DNA of 64,000 nt, taken from contig NZ_CANMFI010000003.1 of NCBI RefSeq assembly GCF_947497125.1, forward strand, positions 62,001-126,000, read 5' to 3'. Numbering within the stretch: position 1 is the first letter of the stretch; each line of letters starts with the position of its first letter. The notes beneath the pieces were generated by a model. The model did not search any database, was not told the origin of the DNA, and saw nothing but the letters and a program-made list of their open reading frames with translations. This DNA comes from an uncultured Polaribacter sp. (GTDB lineage: Bacteria; Bacteroidota; Bacteroidia; Flavobacteriales; Flavobacteriaceae). Made by a program: the position numbers and the translations under genes. Shown in pieces: positions 535-47,391 of the stretch.

Positions 535-609
535 ATTTTATCACATAAAACTACCACAAATAAAAAATAATCCGTTACTTTGTAACGCAGTTCATAAACT
601 TATTAATTC

Positions 610-769
610 GTTATCACGAAAGGCAGAGGGATTAGACCCAGTGAAGCCTTGGCAACCTCTCAAGTTATGAGAAAGGTGCTACATTCTACGAATAGATATT
701 AGATTTTTCTAGTATCTTTTTAGTTCTTTCAATCTTTATTGAAAAGAGCTATATCATTCGACAGATAAC
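610..769 (+). promoter_or_regulatory. SAM-I (S-box) riboswitch upstream of metH
   Basis: The S-box core is readable: TTATCACGAAAGGC, then GAGGGATTAGACCC, GTGAAGCC, GGCAACC and AAGGTGCTACATTC, ending in GACAGATAAC. Helix P1 closes perfectly between GTTATC (610-615) and GATAAC (764-769). This class binds S-adenosylmethionine and normally represses methionine genes when SAM is high. The aptamer is somewhat long, about 160 nt, because the arm between AAGGTGCT and P1 is extended. No intrinsic terminator follows; instead a start-codon hairpin follows at 794-828, so control is probably translational (inference). Confidence 0.93.
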
Positions 770-5003: not shown

Positions 5004-5130
5004 AATTAACAGAGTAAGTTTACGGTTGGCATTGAAATAGGTAATAATTTGTGATTACAAGCGTAAAAAGTGGTTGTTTTGTTAAACATGAAACAAGGTT
5101 TGATATTATAAATAAGTTGCTTACTAGGAT

Positions 5131-5215
5131 GCGTTAGCGATTGAAGTGGCATCCTTTTTAGAGGAACGAAAAAAAGATACAACGTAAAGCGCGACCTTTT
5201 TAGGAAACGCCCAAA
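5131..5215 (-). repeat. dispersed repeat family A, copy A1 (inverted)
   Basis: It reads GCGTTAGCGATTGAAGTGGC to AAACGCCC. Its reverse complement aligns end to end with copies at 6213-6337 and 32998-33084: a GGGCGTT start, GGGCTTT-like and CTTTTTT-like blocks, GGATG, TTCAATC and CTAACGC at the end. It lies about 45 bases upstream of metF, in opposite orientation to copy A2 downstream of metF. The rest of the 4967-5257 gap shows no gene and no clear promoter. Confidence 0.65.
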
Positions 5216-5257: not shown

Positions 5258-6211
5258 ATGAAAATTACAGATCACATAAAAAAAGCAAACGGAAAAACAT
5301 TATTTTCTTTCGAAATTATTCCGCCAAAAAAAGGGAATAACATTCAGGAATTGTACAATAATATAGATCCTTTAATGGAGTTTAAGCCTCCGTTTATAGA
5401 TGTAACCACTTCTAGAGAAGAGTTTGTGTATGTAGAAAAATCGGGTTTGTTAGATAGAAAACTAACAAGAATGCGTCCTGGTACTCTAGGAATTTGCGCT
5501 GCCATAAAGCACAAATACAATGTAGATACGGTGCCGCATGTGTTGTGTGGAGGTTTTACAAAAGAGGAAACAGAATACCTTTTAGTAGATTGCCATTATT
5601 TGGGTATCGATAATGTAATGGCGTTAAGAGGAGATGCTATGAGTCATCAAAAGTATTTTGAACCAAATAAAAACGGGCATCAATATGCCGGCGATTTGGT
5701 TGCTCAAATTCAGGGTTTAAACTCTGGTAAATATTTGCATGATGTTATAGAAACCGATCATAAAACCGATTTTTGTATTGGTGTAGCTGGGTATCCAGAG
5801 AAACATTTAGAGGCGCCTTCTTTGCAAACCGATTTAAAAAGGTTAAAAGAAAAAGTAGCAGCTGGTGCCGATTATGTGGTTACACAAATGTTTTTTGATA
5901 ATAATAAGTATTTCGAGTTTGTAAAAGCAGCCAGAGAAATAGGAATTACGGTGCCTATTATACCCGGAATTAAGCCTTTGGCAGTTAAGCGTCATTTGCA
6001 ATTATTACCACAGGTTTTTAGAATAGATATTCCAGAAAATTTAATAAACGAGGTAGAAAAATGCTCAACTAACGCAGCTGTTAGGCAAGTTGGTGTAGAG
6101 TTTGCCATACAGCAATCTAAAGAGTTGTTGGCAGCTGGTGTGCCGTTTTTACATTATTATTCTATGGGTAAAAGCGATAATATACAGGCAATTGCAAAAG
6201 AATTGTTTTAA
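5258..6211 (+). CDS. metF: methylenetetrahydrofolate reductase
   Basis: A 317-residue flavoprotein of the MetF family that reduces 5,10-methylene-THF to 5-methyl-THF, the methyl donor used by the MetH proteins upstream. Family features include FSFEIIPPKKG at the N terminus with the catalytic Glu, the strand IDVTTS, NVMALRGD, VAGYPEKH and YVVTQMFFDN. The length is normal for bacterial MetF. It is separated from metH by a 290-base gap with a palindrome and repeat A1, so it may have its own promoter, although no good TAnnTTTG box was found. Inverted copies of repeat family A flank the gene. Confidence 0.97.
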   Translation: MKITDHIKKANGKTLFSFEIIPPKKGNNIQELYNNIDPLMEFKPPFIDVTTSREEFVYVEKSGLLDRKLTRMRPGTLGICAAIKHKYNVDTVPHVLCGGFTKEETEYLLVDCHYLGIDNVMALRGDAMSHQKYFEPNKNGHQYAGDLVAQIQGLNSGKYLHDVIETDHKTDFCIGVAGYPEKHLEAPSLQTDLKRLKEKVAAGADYVVTQMFFDNNKYFEFVKAAREIGITVPIIPGIKPLAVKRHLQLLPQVFRIDIPENLINEVEKCSTNAAVRQVGVEFAIQQSKELLAAGVPFLHYYSMGKSDNIQAIAKELF

Positions 6212-6212
6212 T

Positions 6213-6337
6213 TTTTTGGGCGTTCGAGCGGGCTTTCCACTATATCTTTTTAGGTGACAATAAAACTAATTGCGCTATTAATTAGCAAATATCATCTTAT
6301 TGTCACCTAAAAAGGATGTCGTTTCAATCCCTAACGC
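6213..6337 (+). repeat. dispersed repeat family A, copy A2, with nested 18-bp inverted repeat
   Basis: It starts TTTTTTGGGCGTTC right after metF and ends TTTCAATCCCTAACGC. Its centre is a perfect inverted repeat, CTTTTTAGGTGACAATAA (6246-6263) against its complement (6297-6314), with a 33-base loop that itself holds CTAATT/AATTAG. The whole can fold as a large hairpin or cruciform and may serve as a metF terminator. Confidence 0.7.
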
Positions 6338-6459
6338 ACCTCTGTAGCCAACAGAAGTATATTTAATCAGCTAGTCTCTTATATGCTAACAATAAATACA
6401 ATTGATAGATAAATAGTAAAAAGTAATTTTTTAAAAATATCGAACTTAAATAATTTGTT

Positions 6460-9311: not shown

Positions 9312-10808
9312 ATGGCTTCATCAAAAGAAAATATAGAAAAGTTAGATTTGGAAAGTTATTTTCATCAATTTAGAAAACAGATTATTGGAATTGATCAAAC
9401 TTTTGAATCTCCTTACGGTACTCAAAATCTAATTTACACAGATTGGACAGCTAGTGGACGATTGCATAGTTTTGTAGAAGATAAAATGTTGTATCAGTTT
9501 GGCCCTTTTGTAGCCAATACACATACAGAAACTGCTACTTCTGGAGCCGCAATGACATTGGCTTATCATAAAGCTAGGCAAATTATTAAAGCGCATGTAA
9601 ATGCAAATGCAAATGATGTTTTAATTACTTCTGGTTCTGGTATGACAGGCGTTGTTAATAAATTTCAAAGAATTTTAGGTTTAAAAGTTTCCGAGAATTT
9701 AAAAGATCATACAACAATACCAGACGATTTAAGACCAATTGTTTTTGTAAGTCATATGGAGCATCACTCGAACCAAACATCTTGGTTAGAGACCATTGCA
9801 GATGTAGAGGTAGTGCCTTGTAATAATGAAGGGTTGGTGTGTTTAAAAACATTTGAAAAGTGTATTGTAAAGCATCAAGATAGAAAAATAAAAATAGCAG
9901 CAATTACTTCTTGCTCTAATGTTACCGGTATAAAAACACCTTATCATCAGGTAGCAAAATTAATACATAAGTACAATGGTTTGTGTTTTGTAGATTTTGC
10001 TTGTTGTGCGCCTTATGTTTCAATAGATATGCATCCAGCAAATGAAGATGAGTACTTAGATGCTATTTTCTTCTCTCCGCATAAGTTTTTAGGAGGGCCA
10101 GGTAGTGCAGGTGTTTTGGTTTTTAACAAGAAATTATATAAAAATACCATACCAGATAACCCAGGTGGAGGAACGGTAAGTTATACAAATCCTTGGGGGC
10201 AGCATGATTATTTTGATGATGTAGAAACTAGAGAAGATGGTGGTACGCCAGCCTTTTTACAGACAATTAGAGTAGCACTTTCTATTCAGTTAAAAGAAAA
10301 GATGGGTGTTGATAACATTGAACAAAGAGAAGAAGAAATTAATAAAGTTGTTTTTAAGACATTAGAAAACTTGCCCGGTGTAGTCATTTTGGCACCAAAT
10401 CATAAAAAGCGATTGAGTATTTTTTCTTTTTATTTTGAAGAGTACCACTTTAATTTAGTGGTAAAGTTATTAAACGATCGTTTTGGAATACAAACCAGAG
10501 GTGGTTGTTCTTGTGCAGGTACTTACGGACATTTTTTATTAAACGTAGACCAAGAGACCTCTAATAAAATTAAAGATGAAATTTTGCACGGATGCAATAC
10601 CAAAAAGCCAGGATGGGTTCGTTTGTCCTTGCATCCAACGGTTACAAATAAAGAACTTTCTTTTATCTGTAATTCTTTAAAAGAACTTTCTATCCATATA
10701 AAAGATTGGGCTATTGATTATGAATACGATCCTATTAAAAACGATTTTATTCACAAAACAGTTGCGCCAATTGAAAAAGAGTTGGTAGAAAGATGGTTTG
10801 AAATTTAG
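9312..10808 (+). CDS. class V aminotransferase, cysteine desulfurase-like
   Basis: A 498-residue PLP enzyme of fold type I. The PLP lysine is K258 in FFSPHKFLGG; HMEHHSNQTSW and the DFACCAP strand (cofactor-binding Asp) fit the SufS/NifS branch. Instead of the usual SufS RxGxHCA loop it has RGGCSCAGTYGH with C399 and C401. It is about 90 residues longer than typical SufS and has no suf or isc genes beside it, so it is probably not the main Fe-S desulfurase. The substrate is unknown: a cysteine or selenocysteine lyase activity is possible. It follows dsbD by 30 bases. Confidence 0.8.
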   Translation: MASSKENIEKLDLESYFHQFRKQIIGIDQTFESPYGTQNLIYTDWTASGRLHSFVEDKMLYQFGPFVANTHTETATSGAAMTLAYHKARQIIKAHVNANANDVLITSGSGMTGVVNKFQRILGLKVSENLKDHTTIPDDLRPIVFVSHMEHHSNQTSWLETIADVEVVPCNNEGLVCLKTFEKCIVKHQDRKIKIAAITSCSNVTGIKTPYHQVAKLIHKYNGLCFVDFACCAPYVSIDMHPANEDEYLDAIFFSPHKFLGGPGSAGVLVFNKKLYKNTIPDNPGGGTVSYTNPWGQHDYFDDVETREDGGTPAFLQTIRVALSIQLKEKMGVDNIEQREEEINKVVFKTLENLPGVVILAPNHKKRLSIFSFYFEEYHFNLVVKLLNDRFGIQTRGGCSCAGTYGHFLLNVDQETSNKIKDEILHGCNTKKPGWVRLSLHPTVTNKELSFICNSLKELSIHIKDWAIDYEYDPIKNDFIHKTVAPIEKELVERWFEI

Positions 10809-10916
10809 AATATGATTTTAAATGTTATAGCGATTAGATAATTACATAATTATATGTGTGTTATTTTAGGATGTTTTTAATAATCTGTTATTTTATTTAT
10901 AAATAATGTTCTATAA

Positions 10917-10947
10917 TTTGTTTATTTCAATTTATTCTTTAGATTTG
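10917..10947 (+). promoter_or_regulatory. promoter of the pheA operon leader
   Basis: TTTG (10917-10920) and TAGATTTG (10940-10947) are spaced by 19 bases, a full match to the Bacteroidota consensus. Transcription would start near 10954, just ahead of the leader peptide ATG at 10971. Confidence 0.85.
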
Positions 10948-10970
10948 CTTCTTACAATTAATATAAACAA

Positions 10971-11045
10971 ATGTTACAGAACTATTTTACACGTTTCTAT
11001 TTTTACTTCTTTAGTAAGAGAAGAGGCTTTGTATTGTGTTCCTAA
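10971..11045 (+). CDS. Phe/Tyr-rich leader peptide of the aromatic operon attenuator
   Basis: A 24-codon ORF starting MLQNYFTRFYFYFFS and ending at TAA 11043. Eight of ten residues at positions 5-14 are Phe or Tyr (Y, F, F, Y, F, Y, F, F), a composition unlike ordinary protein. It sits 23 bases after the promoter -7 box and before a terminator that abuts pheA. As in known phe and trp leaders, ribosome stalling at these codons when charged Phe- or Tyr-tRNA is scarce would leave the downstream strand 11023-11034 free. The function is inferred from architecture. It is not related to any enzyme and is probably degraded after synthesis. Confidence 0.85.
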   Translation: MLQNYFTRFYFYFFSKRRGFVLCS

Positions 11046-11095
11046 AAACATATTAAGTATATAAAGTCTCGAATATAATTCGGGACTTTTTTTTT
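11001..11095 (+). promoter_or_regulatory. transcription attenuator with alternative hairpins, upstream of pheA
   Basis: Three structures compete. A 7-bp hairpin within the Phe/Tyr codons pairs 11001-11007 with 11013-11019. The antiterminator GAGGCTTTGTAT (11023-11034) pairs with ATATAAAGTCTC (11059-11070), 12 bp with two G-U. The terminator AAAGTCTCGAAT (11063-11074) pairs with ATTCGGGACTTT (11078-11089), 12 bp, loop ATA, followed by a run of nine T. Antiterminator and terminator share 11063-11070, so only one can form. The antiterminator 5' arm lies inside the leader ORF, where a ribosome reaching the stop codon would cover it. Confidence 0.85.
11063..11095 (+). terminator. intrinsic terminator immediately before pheA (attenuator terminator)
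   Basis: A 12-bp stem with one G-U pair and a 3-base loop, then T-run 11087-11095; the pheA ATG follows only 8 bases later. Its position, between a good promoter and the first gene, is what identifies it as an attenuator and not an operon end. Confidence 0.92.
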
Positions 11096-11103
11096 GAATA
11101 TAC

Positions 11104-11934
11104 ATGAACAAAATTATCGCTATACAGGGAGCAGAAGGCTCTAATCATCATAAAGTTGCACTCAACTTTTACGGCAGTAACATTCAGTTGATTGAGTGCA
11201 TGTCTTTTGATGCCTTGGTGCAAAAGTTATTAGAAGGTTCTGCAAAATTCGGAGTAATGGCCTTAGAAAATACCATTGCAGGTTCTATTATACCTAATTA
11301 TGCCTTAATCGATAGTAATAATTTACATATTATAGATGAAGAGTATTTAAATATTCATCATCATTTAATGGCATTAAAGGGCCAACAAATTAAGGATATT
11401 AAAGAGGTTTGGTCGCATCCGATGGCGTTGTTACAATGCAAAGCGTTTTTTAAAAAACATCCGCATATTAAATTGGTAGAAGATGTAGATACTGCAGAAG
11501 TTGCCAAAAGAATTGCTAAAGAAAATTTAACAGGTATTGCTGCAATAGCGCCAAAAATAGCGGCAGAGATATTTGGTTTGCATGTAATTGAAGATGACAT
11601 ACAAACGATAAAAGACAATGCAACGCGCTTTGTAATTGTACAAACAAACAAGCCAGAAACAGACACAAGTGTTAACAAGGCTTCTTTAAAATTTCAATTA
11701 AATCATAAAAGAGGTAGTTTGGCGGCAATTTTAAATGTGTTAAGCGATTGTAAAATGAATTTAACCAAAATACAATCGTTGCCAGTTATAGAAACACCTT
11801 GGAAATACTCGTTTTTTGTAGATGTTACTTTTGATGACTTTAAAGAGTATCAAAAAGCCATTGCAATCTTAGAGATCATGGCAGAAGAATTTAAAATATT
11901 AGGAACCTATAAAAACGGAAGAAATAATGATTAA
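11104..11934 (+). CDS. pheA: prephenate dehydratase
   Basis: A 276-residue monofunctional enzyme converting prephenate to phenylpyruvate. The N-terminal PDT domain has IAIQGAEGSNHH, MALENTIAGSI and, near its end, DNATRFVIV (the catalytic Thr region). The C-terminal ACT domain (about 195-270, starting FQLNHKRGSLAAIL) is the usual phenylalanine sensor, with the IQSLPVIETPWKY segment in place of the canonical ESRP motif. It is the first gene of the operon, directly behind the attenuator, and overlaps the next gene by 8 bases, indicating translational coupling. Confidence 0.95.
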   Translation: MNKIIAIQGAEGSNHHKVALNFYGSNIQLIECMSFDALVQKLLEGSAKFGVMALENTIAGSIIPNYALIDSNNLHIIDEEYLNIHHHLMALKGQQIKDIKEVWSHPMALLQCKAFFKKHPHIKLVEDVDTAEVAKRIAKENLTGIAAIAPKIAAEIFGLHVIEDDIQTIKDNATRFVIVQTNKPETDTSVNKASLKFQLNHKRGSLAAILNVLSDCKMNLTKIQSLPVIETPWKYSFFVDVTFDDFKEYQKAIAILEIMAEEFKILGTYKNGRNND

Positions 11935-13069
11935 ACCCGCGAAAAGGTTAGAGACCGTAAAAGAATACTATTTCTCTAAAAAATTAAGAGAAGTACGTGG
12001 TTTAGTTGCTGCAGGAAAACCAATAATTAATATGGGAATCGGTTCGCCAGATTTGCGACCGCCAGCAACAGTAATTGAAGCAATTTCTACTAGTTTAGGA
12101 GATGCATCTGCTCATAAATATCAATCTTATCAAGGGTTACCCGAGTTAAGGACTGCCATTGCAACTTTTTACAAAAACAAGTTTTCTGTAGTTGCAAATT
12201 CAGAAACAGAGATTTTACCTCTTATGGGAAGCAAAGAGGGAATAATGCATATTTCTATGGCTTTTTTAAACGAAGGCGATCAAGTATTAATTCCCAATCC
12301 AGGCTATCCAACCTATACTTCTGTAACAAAGTTAGTAGGCGCTGAACCGCTTTTTTATAATTTAGATGCAGTAAATAATTGGCAACCAAATTTTAAGGAA
12401 TTAGAAGCGCAAGATTTAAGTGCTGTAAAAATAATGTGGGTTAATTATCCGCATATGCCAACAGGAACAAATGCTACTTTAGAAACCTTTAAAAAGTTGA
12501 TTGCTTTCGGAAAAAAACACAACATTTTAATTATCAATGACAATCCGTATAGCTTTATTTTAAACAACAATCCTATTAGTATTTTACAAGTTAATGGTGC
12601 AAAAGACATTGCTTTAGAATTAAATTCTTTAAGTAAAACTTTTAACATGGCAGGTTGGCGTGTAGGAATGGTTTTAGGAAACGAAGATTATATTACAGAA
12701 ATTTTAAAAGTAAAATCTAATATGGATTCTGGTATGTTTTACGGCATTCAAAAAGGAGCCATACAAGCATTGCATTTATCTGATGCTTGGTTTGTAGAAC
12801 AGAATAAAATTTATGAAGCCAGAAGAGCATTGGTTTGGCAATTGGCAGATAAGTTAGATGCAGTGTATGATAAAAATGCAACGGGTTTATTTGTTTGGGC
12901 TAAAATACCAGAAGGCAAAAAATCGGAAGCAGTTACAGATGCAATTTTGTATGACAACGATATATTTATAACACCAGGAACCATTTTTGGCTCTCAAGGA
13001 GAAGGATATATAAGGTTTTCGTTATGTGTAACAGAAGCTGTAATTAAAGAAGCAATTTCAAGGCTATAA
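11927..13069 (+). CDS. class I/II aminotransferase, probably aromatic amino acid or aspartate type
   Basis: A 380-residue fold type I PLP enzyme. The PLP lysine is K237 in LSKTFNMAGWRVG; NPGYPTY and the phosphate-binding tail RFSLCV are present. Its position between pheA and tyrA suggests that it converts phenylpyruvate and 4-hydroxyphenylpyruvate to Phe and Tyr; this is inference from context, since the sequence also resembles LL-diaminopimelate and alanine-type aminotransferases. It starts inside the end of pheA. The 60-base spacer to tyrA holds the odd short sequence TAAGCTTTAAGCTA. Confidence 0.88.
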   Translation: MIKPAKRLETVKEYYFSKKLREVRGLVAAGKPIINMGIGSPDLRPPATVIEAISTSLGDASAHKYQSYQGLPELRTAIATFYKNKFSVVANSETEILPLMGSKEGIMHISMAFLNEGDQVLIPNPGYPTYTSVTKLVGAEPLFYNLDAVNNWQPNFKELEAQDLSAVKIMWVNYPHMPTGTNATLETFKKLIAFGKKHNILIINDNPYSFILNNNPISILQVNGAKDIALELNSLSKTFNMAGWRVGMVLGNEDYITEILKVKSNMDSGMFYGIQKGAIQALHLSDAWFVEQNKIYEARRALVWQLADKLDAVYDKNATGLFVWAKIPEGKKSEAVTDAILYDNDIFITPGTIFGSQGEGYIRFSLCVTEAVIKEAISRL

Positions 13070-13129: not shown

Positions 13130-13981
13130 ATGAAAAATATATACATGATTGGGGTCGGTTTAATTGGCGGTAGTTTTGCTATCGACATAAAAAACTACAA
13201 TCCAGAAGTTATAATTCACGGAATTAGTAGAAAAGACGAAACCTTAAACAAGGCTTTAGAATTGAATCTAATTGATAAAAAAGCCACTTTAGATGATTTA
13301 GAAAATGCAGATTTGGTTATTGTGTCTATTCCTGTAGATGCAACCGTAAAATTATTACCAACTATTTTAGATAAAATATCAGATAATGGCTTGGTGGTAG
13401 ATGCGGGTTCAACAAAAGAAGCAATTTGTAAGGCCGTTGAACATCATCCAAAAAGAAGAAATTTTTTAGCATGTCATCCTATTGCAGGTACAGAAAAATC
13501 TGGGCCAACAGCTGCAATTTCTGGCTTATACAAAGGGAAAACGAATATTATTTGCGAAGTAGAAAAAACAACTTTTAAGTTGCAAGAAAAAGCGTTGGCA
13601 CTTTTTAATGCTATTGGAATGCGTATTAGATATATGGATGCCGTATCGCATGACAAACATATTGCGTATGTTTCGCACCTCTCTCACATAAGTGCATTTA
13701 TGTTAGGTAAAACTGTCATAAATAAAGAGAAAAACGAACGTGATATTTTTGACATGGCAGGTTCTGGTTTCGAATCTACCGTTCGTTTGGCAAAAAGTAG
13801 TCCTGCAATGTGGACACCCATTTTTAAGCAAAACAAAGACAATGTTATAGAAACATTAGAAGAATACATTAACAATTTACAACATTTTAAAGAGTTGATG
13901 CAACAAGATAATTTCTCTGAAATTTTTAACGAAATGGAGAACACAAATTATATTAAACAAATTTTAAACGGCATAAAATAA
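13130..13981 (+). CDS. tyrA: prephenate dehydrogenase
   Basis: A 283-residue NAD-dependent enzyme that oxidatively decarboxylates prephenate to 4-hydroxyphenylpyruvate. The Rossmann motif is GVGLIGGSFA (about residues 7-16). DAGSTKE, ACHPIAGTEKSGP and SHLSHISAF carry the catalytic and substrate-binding histidines of the TyrA family. There is no fused chorismate mutase or ACT domain; the mutase is on the next gene product. Twenty bases separate it from the DAHP synthase gene. Confidence 0.95.
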   Translation: MKNIYMIGVGLIGGSFAIDIKNYNPEVIIHGISRKDETLNKALELNLIDKKATLDDLENADLVIVSIPVDATVKLLPTILDKISDNGLVVDAGSTKEAICKAVEHHPKRRNFLACHPIAGTEKSGPTAAISGLYKGKTNIICEVEKTTFKLQEKALALFNAIGMRIRYMDAVSHDKHIAYVSHLSHISAFMLGKTVINKEKNERDIFDMAGSGFESTVRLAKSSPAMWTPIFKQNKDNVIETLEEYINNLQHFKELMQQDNFSEIFNEMENTNYIKQILNGIK

Positions 13982-14001: not shown

Positions 14002-15084
14002 ATGAAGAATACAAAAGAATTAAGAACATGGTTGGATGATATGAAATTAGAACATCCACTAGTAATAGCAGGGCCTTGTAGTGCAGAAACCGAAGAACAG
14101 GTTTTAAAAATTGCACACGAATTAAAAGATTCTGATGTAAACTATTTTAGAGCAGGAATTTGGAAACCAAGAACAAGACCAGGTATGTTTGAAGGTGTTG
14201 GAGAAATTGGTTTAAGATGGCTGAAAAAAGTAAAAGAGGAAACAGGTATGAAAACCTGTACAGAGGTAGCAAATGCTGCGCATGTAAAATTAGCCTTAGA
14301 AAATGATGTAGATTTATTATGGATTGGTGCACGTTCTACAGTGTCGCCATTTATAATGCAAGAAATTGCAGATGCATTGCAAGGAACCGATAAAATTGTA
14401 TTGGTTAAAAATCCTGTAAATCCAGATTTAGCCTTATGGTTAGGTGGTATTGAAAGATTATATACTGCCGGAATTAAAAATTTAGGAGCCATTCATAGAG
14501 GTTTTTCTACATATGAAAAATCGAAATACAGAAACATACCAGAATGGCAATTGGCAATTGAGTTTCAAAATAAATTTCCAGATTTGCCTTTAATCTGCGA
14601 TCCTTCTCATATTACAGGAAACAGAGAAATGATTCAAGAAGTTTCTCAGACTGCTTTAGACTTAAACTTTGATGGGTTGATGATCGAAACACATTTCGAT
14701 CCAGAAAATGCTTGGTCTGATGCTGCACAACAAGTAACGCCAGCAAAGTTGAAGCAGATTATGGTAGATTTAAAAATTAAAAAAGAAACCAATTCTGAGG
14801 CAGAATACACAAGTTCTTTAGAAAATTTACGTGCTCAAATTAACGTTGCCGATAATCAATTGTTAGAAACGTTAGGAAAACGAATGAAAATTGCAGACCA
14901 AATTGGGGCACTTAAAAAAGATAAAAATGTAGCCGTTTTACAATCTAAAAGATGGAATGAAATTTTAGGAAACATGATTTTAGAAGGTGAAAGTAAAGGA
15001 CTAAGTGAAGAGTTTGTACTAAAAATGTTCAAGGCAATTCACCAAGAATCTATCAATCATCAAGAAAAAATTATCAACGGATAA
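14002..15084 (+). CDS. bifunctional 3-deoxy-7-phosphoheptulonate synthase / chorismate mutase
   Basis: A 360-residue fusion. The N-terminal part (about 1-260) is a type I-beta DAHP synthase with VIAGPCSAET, the substrate loop TRPGMFEG, KNPVNPD and CDPSHITGNR; it condenses PEP and erythrose-4-phosphate, the first shikimate step. The C-terminal part (about 270-355, starting LENLRAQI) is an AroQ-type all-helical chorismate mutase with LGKRMKIADQIGALKK. In related enzymes the mutase domain also transmits prephenate feedback. Thus one operon covers pathway entry, the mutase and both branch ends, under a single Phe/Tyr-sensing leader. Confidence 0.95.
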   Translation: MKNTKELRTWLDDMKLEHPLVIAGPCSAETEEQVLKIAHELKDSDVNYFRAGIWKPRTRPGMFEGVGEIGLRWLKKVKEETGMKTCTEVANAAHVKLALENDVDLLWIGARSTVSPFIMQEIADALQGTDKIVLVKNPVNPDLALWLGGIERLYTAGIKNLGAIHRGFSTYEKSKYRNIPEWQLAIEFQNKFPDLPLICDPSHITGNREMIQEVSQTALDLNFDGLMIETHFDPENAWSDAAQQVTPAKLKQIMVDLKIKKETNSEAEYTSSLENLRAQINVADNQLLETLGKRMKIADQIGALKKDKNVAVLQSKRWNEILGNMILEGESKGLSEEFVLKMFKAIHQESINHQEKIING

Positions 15085-47058: not shown

Positions 47059-47328
47059 TTATTTTCTAATTCCTAATTCTTTGATAATTGCACGATATCT
47101 ATTGATTTCTGTTTTCTTAAGATAATCTAATAAACTTTTACGTTTACCTACCAACATAACTAATGAACGCTCTGTGTTAAAATCTTTACGATTTTTCTTT
47201 AAGTGTAATGTTAAGTGGTTTATTCTGTGTGTGAATAACGCAATTTGCCCTTCTGAAGAACCGGTATCGTTTTTTCCCTTACCATGCTTTTCGAAAATGC
47301 TTTCTTTTACTTCTTTAGTTAAATACAT
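47059..47328 (-). CDS. rpsO: 30S ribosomal protein S15
   Basis: An 89-residue primary 16S rRNA-binding protein of exact family length. TGSSEGQIALFTHRINHLT, LKKNRKDFNTERSLVMLVGKR, read as HLKKNRKDF and LVGKRKSLLDYLKK, define it. It lies upstream of pnp but with its own terminator. Confidence 0.98.
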   Translation of the reverse strand: MYLTKEVKESIFEKHGKGKNDTGSSEGQIALFTHRINHLTLHLKKNRKDFNTERSLVMLVGKRKSLLDYLKKTEINRYRAIIKELGIRK

Positions 47329-47383
47329 TCCAATATTATTTAAATGATTATTATGTATGTCAATGATGTTTTCATTGAAGCTG

Positions 47384-47391
47384 CAAATATA
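47384..47391 (-). promoter_or_regulatory. putative -7 box for rpsO
   Basis: The minus strand reads TATATTTG, 55 bases before the rpsO ATG. A minus-strand TTTG lies 24 bases upstream, slightly far. Confidence 0.55.

Follow-up and report, generated by a model that had tools for sequence, protein, structure and literature searches.

A predicted Phe/Tyr leader-peptide attenuator upstream of pheA, conserved across Flavobacteriaceae

The best-known cases of leader-peptide attenuation come from Proteobacteria, and a short open reading frame (ORF) crowded with Phe and Tyr codons ahead of pheA in an uncultured Polaribacter sp. raises the question of whether a member of the Bacteroidota controls its aromatic amino-acid genes in the same way. 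In the present study, we analysed the 64,000-nt stretch of DNA that carries this locus (hereafter, the window) together with the DNA upstream of pheA in relatives. Sequence comparison and predicted RNA folds indicated that a classical ribosome-mediated transcription attenuator, sensing the supply of aromatic amino acids, very probably precedes pheA; the spacing of its parts fits a ribosome stalled on the aromatic codons. The features of the locus are collected in Table 1.

Table 1. Features of the pheA locus in the window and leader ORFs ahead of other operons in the same genome
Feature	Position (strand)	Description	Basis
Cysteine-desulfurase-like gene	9312-10808	Upstream of promoter and leader	Profile match
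Bacteroidota-type promoter	10917-10947 (+)	TTTG 10917-10920, 19-nt spacer, TAGATTTG 10940-10947	Pattern scan
Leader peptide ORF	10971-11045 (+)	MLQNYFTRFYFYFFSKRRGFVLCS; ATG 10971, stop 11043-11045, 24 codons plus stop	Translation
Control codons	10983-11012 (+)	YFTRFYFYFF, Phe or Tyr at 8 of 10	Translation
Hairpin 1:2	10988-11033 (+)	Arm 1 within Phe/Tyr codons; competes with antiterminator	Predicted fold
Antiterminator 5' arm (arm 2)	11023-11034 (+)	Within leader ORF	Duplex prediction, fold, pairing in relatives, spacing
Antiterminator 3' arm (arm 3)	11059-11070 (+)	Overlaps terminator 5' arm 11063-11074	Fold and duplex prediction
Intrinsic terminator	11063-11095 (+)	Stem 11063-11074/11078-11089 (12 pairs), loop 11075-11077 (3 nt), T6 11090-11095	Terminator scan
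pheA, prephenate dehydratase	11104-11934 (+)	PRK11898.1, E 9.8e-58, 195.5 bits, below cut-off 219	NCBIfam
PLP aminotransferase	11927-13069 (+)	Overlaps pheA; aminotransferase families, below cut-offs	NCBIfam
tyrA, prephenate dehydrogenase	13130-13981 (+)	PRK08507.1, 381.7 bits, above cut-off	NCBIfam
DAHP synthase-chorismate mutase fusion	14002-15084 (+)	Matches to separate halves, below cut-offs	NCBIfam
His-rich leader ORF (L288)		Upstream of hisG; MKFIQSHHHHFFNCNQAI, then hairpin and T run	
Ile/Val-rich leader ORF (L289)		Upstream of ilvD; MKKQILNIISIIIVNVIITT, then hairpin and T run	
Trp-rich leader ORF (L290)		Upstream of trpE; MKNTQNTFWWWNSLNK, then hairpin and T run	

A sequence-only reading of this DNA had proposed a Phe/Tyr leader peptide attenuator composed of a 24-codon leader with Phe or Tyr at eight of ten residues, an in-codon hairpin, a 12-bp antiterminator whose 5' arm lies inside the leader ORF before its stop, and a 12-bp terminator just ahead of pheA. 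All of these elements were recovered, the leader by translation, the hairpin as a predicted fold, the antiterminator by fold and duplex prediction, and the terminator by a scan. When the 500 nt ahead of pheA were dinucleotide-shuffled 2000 times, an ORF with eight F/Y residues in ten arose once. We infer that the leader ORF is translated. The terminator was the sole terminator-like site found by the scan in 10500-11400. The predicted antiterminator comprises 12 pairs, including G-U pairs, and it excludes the terminator since positions 11063-11070 are common to both structures. Arm 2 begins 13 nt past the first base (11010) of the block's final Phe codon, and in the predicted fold of the window most of it pairs back into the Phe/Tyr codons. 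The predicted fold of 10985-11046 had an energy of -13.3 kcal/mol; the same stems appeared in the fold of 10952-11098, for which z was -4.65.

The sequence-only reading had also named a consensus promoter. A promoter was present, but it was of the Bacteroidota TTTG/TAnnTTTG type rather than sigma-70, for which a scan gave no match at this site, and it was the single site found by the pattern scan in 10601-11104. The TAnnTTTG element is reported to sit at -12 to -5 (PMC9723704); transcription would therefore start at about 10952, with a predicted 5' UTR of 19 nt. In the relatives, promoters were counted for 146 of 147 leaders, the remaining one having too little upstream DNA. The strict pattern (TTTG-N16-24-TAnnTTTG) preceded 8 of these 146 leaders, and a relaxed one (TTG, TAnnTT[TCA]G) preceded 98, against 1.9% in single-base shuffles. 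In these 98, the relaxed motif most often ended 10-19 nt 5' of the leader ATG, so 5' UTRs of about 6-15 nt are predicted for many leaders of the family. An SD-like motif was found ahead of 2 of the 147 leaders and an A at -3 in 80%, in agreement with what is described for Bacteroidetes mRNAs (PMC7366714).

According to the spacing of the genes, pheA, the aminotransferase gene, tyrA and the DAHP synthase/chorismate mutase gene probably form one operon. The expectation that the Phe branch, the Tyr branch and DAHP synthase lie downstream of the leader was borne out by NCBIfam matches, mostly below cut-offs; prephenate dehydrogenase alone passed its curated cut-off among the matches listed for the four genes. 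These genes correspond to the residues that would be sensed, Phe and Tyr.

Loss of the leader ORF or of its paired stems in relatives had been set beforehand as the observation that counts against the attenuator. Instead, we found the leader ORF almost throughout the family, a covarying terminator, and antiterminator pairing far above that of shuffled sequences. PheA was matched in 186 of 199 Flavobacteriaceae genomes (13 without a match), and the upstream DNA of the best-scoring 150 of the 186 was analysed, with a leader defined as an ATG ORF having at least six F/Y per ten residues. Such an ORF lay upstream of pheA in 147 of these best-scoring 150 loci; the chance level was 90 of 3000 dinucleotide shuffles (3.0%), and the opposite strand gave 3 of 150. 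The leader was not found in three of the best-scoring family loci (genomes G012, G020 and G032). By eye, the DNA upstream of pheA in G012 (L078), where an aromatic leader was not found, contained a pair of almost identical repeats that each include a GC-rich inverted repeat. Of the 80 named loci ranking highest in PheA similarity (39 titled Polaribacter, 73-88% identity; some genomes repeat those of the family set), 79 had the leader.

A terminator-like hairpin followed the leader in 147 of 147 cases, with an energy of -10 kcal/mol or lower in 144, compared with 4 of 1470 shuffled tails (0.3%). Since some such hairpin, however weak, was also present in 318 of the 1470 shuffled tails (22%), it is the strength of the hairpin that matters. 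In a MAFFT alignment (A1) of 70 of 139 leaders, the eight-pair terminator core was 99.1% paired, and six of the eight pairs were altered on both sides, in 27 cells. None of five covariation measures was matched by any of 500 shuffles, and slid versions of the core lowered the pairing to 18-51%.

In the same alignment, arm 2 lay one base apart between two subgroups and had no single register across the family; the antiterminator was therefore judged by complementarity and not by column covariation. Eight of the 147 leaders, with odd geometry or length, were excluded from the antiterminator analyses (leaving 139), as was one more with a core off the pattern where the core was scored (leaving 138). 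Arm 2 was fully complementary to the six-base core of arm 3 in 110 of 138 leaders, 61 of them by Watson-Crick pairs only, and the perfect six-pair core was missing in 28. Full pairing arose in 5.9% of single-base shuffles of the upstream DNA (Watson-Crick only, 0.2%). The core took variants such as CGGGAC/GTCCCG and CGAGAC/GTCTCG across the three arms, and CGGAAC/GTTCCG once. The duplex energy beat 98% of the leader's own shuffles in 87 of 139 cases and 90% in 122. Arm 2 lay wholly within the ORF in 99 of 139 leaders, and the best arm 2 extended past the leader stop in 40.

To relate the arms to the codons, we counted the nucleotides that separate the first base of the final aromatic codon in the block from the 5' end of arm 2, in the 122 of 139 family leaders with a duplex stronger than at least 90% of 50 shuffles. 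It was observed that the spacing was 12-14 nt in 103 of the 122 (13 nt in the window) and fell outside 9-15 nt in nine, five of them at 32 nt. With the last aromatic codon in its A site, a ribosome would cover roughly this length of RNA ahead, so arm 2 would be just free. Thus, the conserved leader ORF, terminator and antiterminator, and a geometry that fits stalling on aromatic codons, supported the attenuator that the sequence-only reading had proposed.

In the mechanism we propose, RNA polymerase would start near 10952 and a ribosome, unaided by a Shine-Dalgarno site, would begin the leader at 10971. Under a shortage of charged tRNA-Phe or tRNA-Tyr, the ribosome would stall in 10983-11012 with its front edge at about arm 2 (11023); arm 2 could then pair with arm 3, the terminator would be blocked and the genes would be read. 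If aromatic amino acids were ample, the ribosome would reach the stop at 11043 and cover arm 2, so that arm 3 would pair with arm 4 and transcription would end at about 11090-11095. Coupling of the ribosome to RNA polymerase is an assumption of this mechanism, and transcription start, stalling, termination and the response of each to amino acids are its predicted steps.

The conservation of the aromatic residues is strong, and Trp is included in many relatives, as would also be expected of a TnaC-like nascent-chain arrest, in which the aromatic peptide and a free aromatic amino acid stall the ribosome near the stop and thereby set the RNA fold. In TnaC-type leaders, the position of the RNA switch is tied to the stop codon and to invariant residues of the peptide. 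Here, however, F and Y interchange in frame at many positions, and leader lengths and C-termini vary. Within the family, the distance from arm 2 to the stop varied rather little too (middle half 11-16 nt), and the aromatic-codon spacing was only slightly tighter (sd 4.0 against 5.1 for the stop); thus the family alone cannot tell which codon matters. In 21 distant leaders, hand-picked from outside the family or from divergent members (L194 and L195 belong to the family; L178, L284 and L285 were excluded), the aromatic-codon spacing was 9-15 nt in 20, whereas the distance from arm 2 to the stop ranged from -6 to 27, so placement of the switch relative to the stop was not found in this set. The spacing kept to the aromatic codons and not to the stop favours stalling on those codons over arrest at the stop, and we regard arrest by the peptide as very unlikely.

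Stable alternative folds and a terminator could equally serve a direct RNA sensor, that is, a T-box, a riboswitch or a protein-bound leader that works the terminator while the ORF is incidental. Such a sensor appears even less probable, as no Rfam family reached its gathering score at the leader, a T-box was missing even from the permissive match list, and both the leader ORF (147 of the best-scoring 150 of 186 loci) and the arm-to-codon spacing are kept. It is also true that the region is AT-rich, which favours F and Y codons, and that 22% of shuffled tails hold some weak terminator-like hairpin, as would suit a constitutive partial terminator beside a chance F/Y-rich ORF, with regulation absent. 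The low rates at which shuffles yielded such an ORF or a terminator of -10 kcal/mol or lower argue against this explanation, under which neither the conservation of arm 2 nor its spacing would have a reason; we consider it extremely improbable. The attenuator thus keeps its place as the preferred reading, and its narrow codon-to-arm spacing offers a handle for a genetic test of ribosome-polymerase coupling in Bacteroidota.

Outside the Flavobacteriaceae, 26 loci of the class were collected, and one (L174), whose match begins within the gene, was left out. A leader was present in 15 of the remaining 25 and missing at the threshold in 10. Among ten loci of the order from other families, the leader was found in three (L196, L197 and L201) and was borderline, at 5 of 10, in two (L191 and L193); it was not found in the other five, four of which came from genomes of about 0.6 Mb. 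PheA is retained in these four small genomes (L198, L199, L200 and L202) where the aromatic leader was not found, and this absence could mean that regulation was lost in reduced genomes. Both loci analysed outside the class (L286 and L287) had the leader. Two further class loci differed, L284 having a leader and L283 none; together with L153 and L154, L283 belongs to a group (f16) with pheA and no leader. A different ORF of L283 terminates 5 nt ahead of the PheA match start, which suggests that pheA sits within another operon there, so a leader would not be expected. The distant leaders used other cores (e.g. GCCGGG or AGAGCGGG), and their arms still pair. Collectively, a single well-delimited leader is widely distributed: it persists across the family and occurs in a number of other Bacteroidota families. 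This phylum has a promoter type of its own and lacks classical Shine-Dalgarno initiation.

Although no Trp codon occurs in the window's own leader (MLQNYFTRFYFYFFSKRRGFVLCS), Trp was present in 98 of the 147 family leaders. It made up 2.9% of residues in 226 leaders, a set that counts at least two genomes twice (L261 = L004, L263 = L003), compared with 0.9% in 43 window ORFs with 200 or more codons. In Polaribacter and Tenacibaculum relatives, 60 of 83 leaders fitted a common pattern, and one leader column held W in 36, F in 17, Y in 6 and C in 1, that is, an aromatic residue in 59 of 60. On the PheA tree, this column required at least 13 changes, or at least 9 when F and Y were merged (W, F/Y, other). 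Eight leaders off the pattern could be aligned by eye; they had W in L234, L269, L272 and L273 and F in L225, and non-aromatic residues in L205 (Cys), L264 and L266 (both Asn). Because a change from W to F or Y requires two base changes, selection seems, as judged from these leaders, to keep the site aromatic.

These results raise the possibility, which we hold to be somewhat short of probable, that a single codon block reads the supply of Phe, Tyr and Trp together as a pan-aromatic integrator. A peptide needing aromatic side chains would fit the interchange of W, F and Y too. If the integrator were real, lack of any shikimate-pathway product would open the genes for DAHP synthase entry and for the Phe and Tyr branches, and it would imply that ribosome-polymerase coupling in Bacteroidota is tight enough for this even where Shine-Dalgarno sites are missing and 5' UTRs are very short. 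The mixed Phe/Tyr/Trp block provides a way to test whether a single leader can read several amino acids.

The Phe_leader family (RF01859) comprises the proteobacterial elements such as E. coli pheL-pheA, with a short Phe-rich ORF, alternative hairpins and a terminator before pheA. Its model aligned full-length to 10966-11095, with 25.4 bits and an E value of 0.021, below the cut-off of 55. The two elements resemble each other in the short ORF, the alternative hairpins and the terminator. They differ in that Tyr (and Trp in relatives) shares the control block here, in that a Shine-Dalgarno site is missing, and in that genes for the Tyr branch and DAHP synthase lie downstream. Judged by its sequence, the pheA element is one that would work like the Phe leader yet lies outside the RF01859 family model. 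T-box, riboswitch and other Rfam families were also tried at the pheA leader; none gave a match over its cut-off, and no T-box match was obtained.

A 2021 study of F. psychrophilum gives clues to leader-peptide attenuation at amino-acid operons and describes a structured 5' element of pheA, shared with other genera of Flavobacteriaceae and lacking hits in Rfam (PMC9723704), which concerns the same gene and bacterial family as the leader in the window. Section 19 of that study leaves the pheA leader peptide, the arms and the spacing undescribed and does not tie the clues to the pheA element; its supplementary tables may do so. Among the titles and abstract starts of open-licence literature, nothing else suggested that Bacteroidota carry a leader ahead of pheA; cases may be given by Lopatovskaya et al. 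2010. The sequence-only reading had named no described case for this operon in Flavobacteriaceae. This holds insofar as section 19 of PMC9723704 names no pheA leader peptide, but not for the conserved 5' element and the leader-peptide clues given there, nor in view of the Rfam family Bacteroid-trp (RF01692). To an element partly foreshadowed in print, the present analysis adds the leader anatomy, the spacing rule, the breadth, and Trp interchanging with Phe and Tyr.

Bacteroid-trp, listed for Bacteroidetes (PMC2864571), is likewise a leader-peptide element, found before an amino-acid operon of this phylum, but by name it is a Trp sensor and belongs to a different operon; it was not among the matches of the pheA leader, even at E values up to 5. 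The trpE leader in the genome of the window is a member of this family (58.2 bits against a cut-off of 49), and the hisG and ilvD leaders gave no Rfam family above cut-off. The antiterminators that a script found in the hisG, ilvD and trpE leaders were weaker (-9.2, -7.1 and -6.7 kcal/mol, respectively). Given these three leaders in the same genome (Table 1), several leader attenuators plausibly operate in this organism.

Other RNA elements were observed along the way. Flavo-1 RNA matches at 5122-5200 (+) and 6222-6353 (-) flank, in opposite orientations, an ORF at 5258-6211 that is metF-like by eye, and a further Flavo-1 match lies ahead of the ilvD leader (L289:911-1052, minus strand). The window also contains a SAM riboswitch above its cut-off at 608-702 (+) and an S15-Flavobacteria ribosomal protein leader at 47326-47391 (-).
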